From Druceiella hillmani (taxonomy: Eukaryota > Arthropoda > Insecta > Lepidoptera > Hepialidae): 64,000 nucleotides of DNA. A model generated the notes under the pieces. That model was not told where the DNA came from and made no database searches. It was given only the letters and a program-made list of their open reading frames with translations. The DNA is taken from contig JAYKKI010000138.1 in NCBI GenBank assembly GCA_039881145.1, positions 1,479,501-1,543,500 on the forward strand. The letters run 5' to 3'. Below are positions 57,874 to 59,887 of this stretch, in pieces (the stretch's first letter is position 1; every line of letters begins with the position of its first letter). A program made the position numbers and the translations under genes.

Positions 57874-57957
57874 AGACGGCCAATTGCGAGTCCGGCTTGC
57901 TCATCATAGGTTAAGTATCTCGTGTGAGGTGAAATTACTTTATTTATTATTATTGAA
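57874..57957 (+). repeat. ACGGCCAAGTGCGAG-type repeat head
   Basis: GACGGCCAATTGCGAGTCCG, then GCTTGCTCATCATAGG and GTGAAATTACTTTATTTATT. The first part matches from memory a lepidopteran repeat start (ACGGCCAAGTGCGAGTCGGAC). It aligns with 27070-27150 inside this window. Confidence 0.55.
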
Positions 57958-58034
57958 ATTCAAGCGCAATAAATATTTAATTAAACCTAAAATTAAAAAG
58001 AAATTTCAAGCACAATAAATATTTAATTAAACCT
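57955..58034. repeat. ~45-bp tandem duplication, 2 copies
   Basis: GAAATT.CAAGCRCAATAAAT followed by ATTTAATTAAACCT occurs at 57955 and again at 58000, close to identical. It lies between the ACGGCCAA-type repeat and the mariner relic. Confidence 0.8.
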
Positions 58035-58134
58035 TATATGTTCAAGTAGGGAGTACGTATACATTGAGTAGATTAATACGTTTTTAATCCCGAATGGCTG
58101 TCAACCATTTTTATTAAACAATTTATATATTACA

Positions 58135-59085
58135 CTAAATTTCATTTATGTATGCACCATTATTATCCACTACTTATCGCCACCTATTTGGCAGTGACAA
58201 TATGCCTTTCTAGTAAAATTCCGGTGACTTTGATTCAAAAAACTGTGCGAGGTCGTTTTGGAGATCGTTTTAATGTCGAATTTTTTTCACCTAAATGGTT
58301 GCTGAGATCCTTGACTAAATGATAATCAGAGCGCACCATGTCCGGCGAATATGGTGTTTGATTTAGTAGAACCCAGCCGACCTCCTCTAATTTATTATGA
58401 GTACGTTTTGCAATATGTGGTCTAGCATTAACATGTAGAAAATAAACTCGATCCTGTTGACTACTCAATTTGTTAGCTAATGGGTCCACTTGTTCACAGT
58501 AAATATCTGCATTAATAGTAAATCCCTCTGAAAGAAACTCCCATTGAATAATGTCCGTGATGTTCCACTTTTTTGGCAATTATTTCAGGTTTGGATACTG
58601 AAACTCCTGTTTCTTCGACCCCCAGCCATTTATGTTTGCATGTATGGTTAATGTATGTAACCTACTTCTTATCGCCAGTTACTGATTCAGGCATTCAAAG
58701 TTACGAAGTCAGAAGTAAGAAGGTGAAATGATGACAACTCGTGGGGTATCTACACACTGTATTCTGAAACTTTTCCCAATTTGTGCGAATGTGTTTCTAT
58801 GGTGCCTGCACTGCAGTGTAGCTCATCTGCCAATTGGCGAGTCGTCAGTCGAGGATCCTTCTCAATTAGGCATCGTAATCGTTAACATCCAATTCAACAG
58901 GATATCCAGTACGGAGTTGGTCCTCGAGATCGTAGTCCACATTCCTGAACTTTCTGAAACAATCTGTGCTACTGCTTTAGAGACCATGGACATATATTAT
59001 TTGTGGCCGACTTTACATCGTGAGCCAGACAAAATAATGTATCATAAAATAATAGAATCCGTATATGATATTGATTTAAATCCAT
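58135..59085 (-). pseudogene. Decayed mariner (DD34D) transposase, near full length
   Basis: Read on the minus strand, the segment gives a nearly collinear mariner-family transposase, an enzyme that cuts and pastes its own transposon at TA sites. It is split over about six frames. In order: an N-terminal stretch HIRILLFYD from the ATG at 59085; FRKFRNVDYDLED and a helix-turn-helix-like DPRLTTRQLADEL (about 58820-58860); a W-to-stop in the ..SV*IPHELS linker motif; TGDKK with the first catalytic Asp (about 58670), followed by a stop; TINADIYCEQ-like text; LHVNARPH (about 58430), where the second catalytic Asp is Val; YSPDMVRSDYH with the third Asp; and the C-terminal SPEFY, VVDNNGAYI, ending at a TAG at 58135. 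Exactly 34 residues separate the second and third catalytic positions, which is diagnostic of mariner rather than Tc1. Length is about 317 codons against roughly 345 usual, so small deletions are present. Three further stops lie near the C-terminus. It is dead as an enzyme. The 58235-58579 minus-strand frame is its longest open piece. Subfamily not assigned. Confidence 0.93.
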
Positions 59086-59117
59086 TATCTTTTATGTAAT
59101 TCACTTAAAACGTCGGC

Positions 59118-59190
59118 GCTGACTGTTGTCAACTGACTGCACTCTGGCCTATTTATATCCTATAGTAAAACTTTCTAGAAATTTCGAGAA
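59118..59190 (-). promoter_or_regulatory. Heat-shock-type promoter: HSE array, TATA box, initiator
   Basis: Seen directly: TTCnnGAAnnTTCnnGAA occupies 59173-59190, four perfect alternating 5-bp units with imperfect units on both sides. Fifteen bases further along the minus strand is TATAAATA (59150-59157). Then come TCAGTT (59131-59136) and TCAGC (59118-59122), both resembling the arthropod initiator. The order and spacing are those of insect hsp70-type promoters, where HSF trimers bind arrays of inverted nGAAn units. The only open frame downstream is the mariner transposase pseudogene, whose ATG lies about 35-50 bases beyond the likely start site. A mariner 5' end normally has a TIR plus UTR of about 150-170 bp before the ATG, and I could not find that here. 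Function is inferred. Confidence 0.6.
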
Positions 59191-59887
59191 CCTTTCTAAA
59201 AAATTCCGAAATTTGTGGCTAAAAACTTACTAGGGAAGCTAATATTATCATGAATATCTTAAAAATTATGTCATCTCGAATTGTCGTTGTTGTTTTACTA
59301 CAAACGTTGTGTAGGATTCTGAAGATATATGTTTTCATGGCTTTTGGTTCAGAGGTTTTGTAATGAAATAAATGTGAGGGGCACATTTCTTACATATTTT
59401 TCCGTAAATACCTTAACTAGATTTGGCATTAAATTTATATAAGTAATTCTGTGTCGTTATCGGCAATTTTCATTGAATTAATGTTAAAATGGTTACTTAC
59501 GGATAATTTTCATGATATGTATTAGTAGTTTAAACAATTTAAAATTTTTTTTTTATTTTCACGGTTTAAATTAATTTCTATTGGCCTAGTTTCCATAGAA
59601 GAAAATTAATATTCCTCAGATTAAGAACAAAAACCATAACATCTACAAAATATCGATGGCGTCGGCCACGTGTCCAAAAATTAATTGATATAATCTCCCG
59701 TTTAAATATCAAATAACAGATACTATTTTCCCCCTGCAATATTTAGAGCTACATTACGTCTCACTGTATATTTTGAAGCCACAAAGACTGTTTTCTTCCT
59801 CCACAAATGAAAAGATGAGCGTAGCTCTGATTAAAAATATTGCTTTTTATCGACAATTAACCAAGTTGGTTGTAACATGCTAGCACG

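Follow-up and report, generated by a model that had tools for sequence, protein, structure and literature searches.

The locus raises the question of whose promoter stands in front of its mariner. Within the window, by which we mean the whole 64-kb stretch of DNA analyzed here (GC content, 28.5%), a heat-shock element (HSE) and a TATA box lie just upstream of a decayed mariner transposase. The initial annotation of this DNA proposed either that a mariner had lost its 5' end upon insertion into the 5' untranslated region (UTR) of an hsp gene or that the mariner lineage had acquired a heat-inducible promoter. P-element and other transposable-element insertions occur in Drosophila hsp70 promoters, and a mariner fragment has been described near the hsp70 genes of Stratiomys (PMC3071340).

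The arrangement reported in the initial annotation, with a four-unit HSE, the TATA box TATAAATA, and TCAGTT upstream of the mariner ATG in matching orientation, was borne out by the minus-strand coordinates, and the spacings given between HSE, TATA box, and ATG were all correct. The four units read TTC(59190-59188)tcGAA(59185-59183)atTTC(59180-59178)taGAA(59175-59173), that is, TTCtcGAAatTTCtaGAA, and an extra GAA (59196-59194) lies upstream of them, one base out of register. Based on the sequence, the family alignment, shuffles, and a genome count, we delimited the HSE, including this GAA and the TTTT that follows the four units, to positions 59167 to 59201 of the minus strand (family consensus, TTCTAGAAAGATTCTCGAAACTTCTAGAAGGTTTT). 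It is separated by 15 nt from the TATA box (59157-59150), and the initiator-like TCAGTT (59136-59131), recognized from the sequence and the family alignment, and the ATG (59085-59083) follow on the same strand. TCAGTT is doubtful as a start site, since its A lies only 23 nt from the start of the TATA box. Four perfect alternating units occur as a single run in the whole 64-kb window, compared with 0.000 such runs on average when the window was dinucleotide-shuffled (60 trials). Runs of three units stand out less: they start at 5 positions, of which two belong to the HSE at 59190-59173, versus 0.65 per shuffle.

The 5' terminal inverted repeat (TIR), which the initial annotation had missed and had expected between the HSE and the ATG, was found upstream of the HSE, at 59242-59217. 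Because the repeat lies on that side, the HSE, the TATA box, and the leader are internal to the transposon. The element spans 59242-58064 on the minus strand, and both of its inverted repeats are decayed. The 5' repeat (consensus, TTAGGTTGGCTAGTAAGTTTTTAGCC) was read from the majority sequence and is plain in many relatives, and the 3' repeat (58064-58087; consensus, TTAAAAACTTATTAGCCAACCCAA) was placed from aligned 3' ends. The 5' TA target-site duplication occupies 59243-59244 of the same strand, where homology among the copies starts, and its decayed 3' counterpart (58063-58062) reads TG. Just past the 3' end of the mariner, at 57956-58039, the window contains two near-tandem 38-nt units, which are 89% alike and have a start-to-start spacing of 46 nt.

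The mariner identity of the downstream sequence, as stated in the initial annotation, was also confirmed. Based on its sequence, a domain match, and the family consensus frame, the region at 58135-59085 of the minus strand, from the ATG at 59085 to a TAG at 58137-58135, is a decayed mariner (DD34D) transposase remnant with stops and frameshifts. Its longest open piece matches Transposase_1 (PF01359) with an E value of 2.2e-6, and in two other copies we obtained E values of 6.2e-13 for the same domain (L045) and 8.4e-10 for HTH_48 (PF17906; L020). Furthermore, a 288-aa piece of the consensus translation matches the Mos1 structure 3hos (E value, 4.2e-68), and 34 residues separate the second and third D of the family consensus when counted by eye. 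The family shares its TIR, TA target, HTH_48 and Transposase_1 domains, and DD34D signature with the known mariners Mos1, Hsmar1, and Mboumar-9, and its consensus is likewise about 1.2 kb long with a single ORF. No intact transposase frame was found in the window or in 39 further copies, in which the longest stop-to-stop frames range from 60 to 147 aa and lie in some cases in the flanks. A search of a 5.8-billion-protein set yielded 1,888 relatives with an E value of ≤0.001 among 2,485 candidates. The best-scoring relative is 66% identical, and identity reaches 67% among the 120 matches listed, most of which are unnamed or labelled only SETMAR; the organisms given for them include Adineta, Rotaria, and C. 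elegans.

We searched the genome (2.586 Gb in 181 contigs) with 1,166 nt of the locus and obtained at least 45 matches including the window (40 scored of 3,821 candidates). The other 44 are 75 to 86% identical, and half of them (22 of 44) begin at query positions 53 to 57, which correspond to the TA and the TIR, upstream of the HSE. Thirty-nine copies with their flanks were aligned with the window, and both ends were inspected. The TIR followed by the HSE-TATA-leader unit is present in 27 of these 39 copies, and to the eye the flanks are different in all but three. Those three (L013, L016, and L044; two on contig C69 and one on C1) are not independent; as they have flanking sequence in common, they were probably spread by duplication of a larger unit that contained the mariner and not by transposing one by one.

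The presence of the HSE and TATA box in related copies, which the initial annotation had left for checking, was verified in the majority sequence of the 39 copies and the window. Its 5' end runs TA, TTAGGTTGGCTAGTAAGTTTTTAGCCACAACTTCGGGACTT TTCTAGAAAGATTCTCGAAACTTCTAGAAGGTTTT ACTGTAGGG TATAAATA GGCCAAAGTGCAGTCAGTTGACAACAGTCAGCGCCGAAGCTTTAAGTGAATTACATAAAAGATA ATG, a layout of TIR, TTCtaGAA-aga-TTCtcGAAacTTCtaGAA, 15 nt, TATAAATA, leader, and ATG, and its 3' end reads TTAAAAACTTATTAGCCAACCCAA and then TA. By eye, the two consensus inverted repeats agree at 23 of 26 positions, and the TA at both ends represents a mariner-type target-site duplication. The binding consensus of heat shock factor (HSF) consists of contiguous inverted nGAAn units, and the family consensus has at least three such units upstream of its TATA box. 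Individual copies have kept this unit to different degrees: counting the window, 14 of 31 rows retain four in-register units, 19 retain a contiguous run of three or more, and 23 retain a perfect TATAAATA. The 31 rows comprise the 27 copies with full 5' ends, 3 copies that begin inside the element, and the window; four copies (L017, L020, L032, and L033) were left uncounted, and five (L034, L039, L041, L042, and L045) were excluded for lack of alignment across the HSE.

In the 30 counted copies other than the window, mean column conservation is 0.934 for the HSE cores, 0.929 for the HSE spacers, 0.965 for the TATA box (59150-59157 in the window), 0.872 for the TIR, and 0.908 for the rest of the leader. 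The cores are barely above the spacers or the remaining leader, and no selection on the HSE was seen within the family in these 30 copies. The near equality of core and spacer points to neutral decay of the HSE after insertion rather than to selection in the present copies. As far as can be judged from these columns, the HSE was already present in the progenitor and decays like its neighbors after insertion. Kimura two-parameter (K2P) distances to the consensus range from 0.061 to 0.127 (median, 0.093; 62 loci), a range that is consistent with a single old burst, in which the family apparently expanded before it died.

We also compared the unit with chance and with other mariners. When the consensus leader was dinucleotide-shuffled 100,000 times, a three-unit HSE arose 176 times and a four-unit HSE 5 times, and none of the shuffles contained a four-unit HSE with TATAAA downstream. 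As controls, we took matches from a PF01359 search (13,233 candidates, of which 150 were scored) and inspected the 5' ends of 14 that had high scores or long frames. One of them (L112) turned out to be a member of the HSE mariner family with a decayed HSE. Even a three-unit HSE was found in none of the other 13, which by eye, from their ends or internal sequence, represent four or more groups and include two copies with an incomplete 5' end (no terminus was recognized in L114, and L115 reaches only about 100 nt into the element). Among the sampled mariners, the HSE is, on this sequence comparison, a property of the window's family and not of mariners generally. Another mariner family, noticed at L117 (C30:3785780-3786230) and at C30:3786610-3786843, has the end GAGGGCGCGTTTTTAAGTTC, the box TATAAATA, and no HSE; one of its copies has a 362-aa open frame, and this family may be recent.

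As the alignments and control copies show, the HSE-TATA-leader unit belongs to the element, stands in the family consensus, and is missing in all 13 copies sampled from other families. We consider that this unit is probably the native, compact, and putatively HSF-driven heat-shock promoter of the mariner family, a reading to which we assign a probability of about 0.68. The progenitor would have carried this promoter just inside its 5' inverted repeat, with four to six nGAAn units, 15 nt, TATAAATA, and 64 nt to the transposase ATG. Under heat or other proteotoxic stress, host HSF would occupy the array and drive transcription of the transposase, and transposition bursts would be tied to stress. 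The family would then have expanded, apparently in one burst, and died, leaving many fossils that retain the HSE and the TATA box; such fossils may still bind HSF and yield transposase-sense RNA. Binding by HSF, induction by heat, the coupling of transposition to stress, and any continued transcription of the fossils are what we infer. Of the two explanations proposed in the initial annotation, the acquired promoter is, on the sequence evidence, better than the insertion into an hsp gene: the lineage does have an HSE promoter in its consensus that 13 copies of other families lack, whereas its inducibility by heat would be a prediction from this sequence.

Several observations run against this native-promoter reading. 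Three of the five host hsp70 upstream stretches lack a three-unit HSE in a strict scan, the distance from the TATA box to the initiator-like motif is short, and the HSE decays neutrally in the copies. Besides, a second lineage or species with the HSE was found neither in the other mariner families inspected nor in viral and prokaryote collections. When contigs of these collections were searched with the consensus protein and with a 20-protein alignment, no relative with a matching HSE was obtained, and the sole match, an Akkermansia metagenome-assembled genome (L098; 44% over residues 233 to 271), was unusable.

According to a second explanation, the array is part of the mariner but no HSF promoter, consisting of chance palindromes or of a site for the transposase or another factor that hitchhiked with one progenitor. 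We regard this as unlikely, yet hitchhiking of a chance array is our main doubt about the native-promoter reading: given the single-burst look of the copies, one chance event in the progenitor would suffice, and the HSE shows no real excess of conservation in its cores over its spacers. Weak or missing core motifs are usual for the "blurry" promoters of tested Tc1/mariner elements in the available part of one report (PMC6446368), and in Caenorhabditis, motifs for factors other than HSF, e.g., LSL-1, are found in Tc1/mariner elements according to the available part of another (PMC8896005). However, the combination of four units with a downstream TATA box was never met in the 100,000 shuffles, and the array, formed by contiguous inverted nGAAn units, fits the HSF consensus. 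Furthermore, the TTC/GAA array is confined to the transposase end, and none was seen by eye at the 3' ends of the aligned copies, which argues against a transposase-binding repeat.

A third explanation concerns the origin of the unit and is compatible with the native-promoter reading: the progenitor may have captured the promoter and leader of an hsp gene from its host or a former host and then amplified them. The layout, in which an HSE, a short spacer, a TATA box, and a short leader follow one another, does resemble that of hsp genes, and one host hsp70 gene (L101) has three units (GAA-TTC-GAA) at −152 with TATATAA downstream. The host genome gave 33 hsp70 and 98 small-hsp (HSP20) matches. 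Host genes have comparable arrays, which speaks for the native-promoter reading: at least three contiguous units were found upstream of two of five hsp70 genes and in one of two small-hsp upstream stretches. In a strict scan of 900 nt upstream of the hsp70 genes, L102 has four contiguous units from −241, and no run of three or more units was found for L099, L100, and L103; of the small-hsp stretches, L121 contains arrays of three units, whereas nothing beyond pairs of units was found in L122. Over its first 617 aa, L102 has normal-length named matches in Lepidoptera at 81 to 85% identity (the best among the 120 matches listed), above which stand eight over-long proteins of other organisms, two lemur entries being the other named exceptions. 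The similarity to hsp promoters that the initial annotation led us to look for was not found, as no stretch of the leader longer than 16 nt matches any of 8 hsp70 loci (upstream sequence was included for 5) or the upstream stretches of 2 of the 98 small-hsp matches. We rejected capture from a host hsp70 gene, the leader being without similarity to the 8 loci, and capture from an hsp gene of the host or a former host seems very improbable to us.

The remaining explanation, that a mariner lost its 5' end by inserting into an hsp 5' UTR at this locus, can practically be dismissed, although the window copy on its own hardly reveals its 5' inverted repeat, because the alignment of the 39 copies and the window refutes it (the TA and inverted repeat, HSE, TATA box, and leader recur in the 27 copies with differing flanks), no stop-free frame longer than 137 aa occurs in the window (among closed frames of 90 aa or more), the 33 hsp70 and 98 small-hsp matches all lie on contigs other than that of the window (C138), and the leader is unlike the hsp loci compared.

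We further estimated how much this family contributes to the HSEs of the genome. The pattern TTCNNGAANNTTCNNGAANNTTTT, which is the four-unit HSE plus NNTTTT, has 645 genome matches (317 plus 328) versus 24 for a reversed control. Among 46 distinct sites examined, 43 sit within copies of the window's mariner family, the exceptions being L064, L069, and L094, and 27 of the 43 have TATAAA within 26 nt after the match (reverse-sense sites were left uncounted). The 46 sites come from the first 52 matches listed; the site of L035 was not taken a second time, and L051, L053, L057, and L075 were merged with overlapping or adjacent matches in the same element. Extrapolated from these first contigs, the 645 matches represent about 580 sites (46 sites per 51 rows), and multiplication by 43/46 gives roughly 540 mariner HSE sites genome-wide. 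The TTTT tail of TTCNNGAANNTTCNNGAANNTTTT favors the mariner. With the neutral four-unit pattern TTCNNGAANNTTCNNGAA, we counted 2,125 genome sites versus 284 for the control, and of the 50 sites listed first, at least 13 coincide with mariner HSEs that had already been placed. On these first-listed sites, the family supplies at least about a quarter of the strict four-unit HSEs, so that a single transposon is a major contributor of such elements to a large genome. It is conceivable, though we think it rather doubtful, that a stress-triggered mariner burst under HSF spread these some 540 HSEs and gave heat responsiveness to nearby genes or antisense RNAs. A recurring type of HSE that does not look like the mariner, TTCNNGAACATTCNNGAA, was noticed among the TTCNNGAANNTTCNNGAA sites (C1:18153419, C1:33123881, C1:34856369, and C1:39358457), which suggests a second repeat or gene family with strong HSEs.

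In the Arabidopsis LTR retrotransposon ONSEN/COPIA78, an HSE in the element's own promoter drives heat-dependent mobilization. This element and TCN3/TCN12 of Cryptococcus resemble the mariner in that the HSE lies inside the promoter region of the element, and differ from it as LTR elements of a plant and a fungus, respectively. For TCN3/TCN12, an HSE has been proposed to drive heat-dependent mobilization (PMC12810828). Caenorhabditis Helitrons are likewise DNA transposons whose HSEs supply much of a genome's HSE stock, holding 61.4% of the HSEs of C. elegans (Garrigues et al. 2019, PMC6927752), and for Helitron1_CE, HSF-1 binding and heat induction have been demonstrated (PMC6765114). Helitrons, however, are rolling-circle elements whose HSEs are clustered, with more than 100 in each of eight copies (PMC6927752), whereas the mariner is a cut-and-paste element of an insect in which a single compact, putatively HSF-binding array keeps a fixed spacing to the TATA box, and against the 61.4% of the Helitrons stands its share of at least 13 among the 50 strict four-unit sites listed first. 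Tested Tc1/mariner elements have weak, divergent, or missing core-promoter motifs, and, unlike for the window's family, neither an HSE nor the word "heat" is mentioned in the available part of the report (PMC6446368). In the Drosophila and Stratiomys cases, a transposon lies in or near a host hsp gene, whereas the window's mariner owns its HSE promoter. Within the open-access literature searched, judged mostly by titles and the openings of abstracts, we recognized no mariner with an HSE promoter, and the present family is the first mariner that we found among HSE-bearing transposons.

Stress-inducible transposons are a long-standing idea, for which we met promoter-level cases among LTR elements and Helitrons. 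A mariner whose consensus includes an hsp-type promoter would provide a clean and testable insect case, as the system offers one short unit, hundreds of natural mutants at varied stages of decay, and other mariner families as controls. If an HSF-controlled burst did spread heat responsiveness as considered above, the mariner would parallel the Caenorhabditis Helitrons as a cut-and-paste element, and would do so in a genome that has 98 small-hsp matches. The many HSP20 matches together with the HSE-bearing mariner make this genome look worth a heat-shock study. Most of the HSP20 matches lie in two dense arrays (C79:6107-371108 and C83:10091762-10319254), which may be either a very large small-hsp expansion or partly allelic contigs, and hsp70 genes occur as two same-strand pairs, at C78:6358905-6377984 (about 17 kb apart) and C63:5917230-5931213 (about 12 kb apart).
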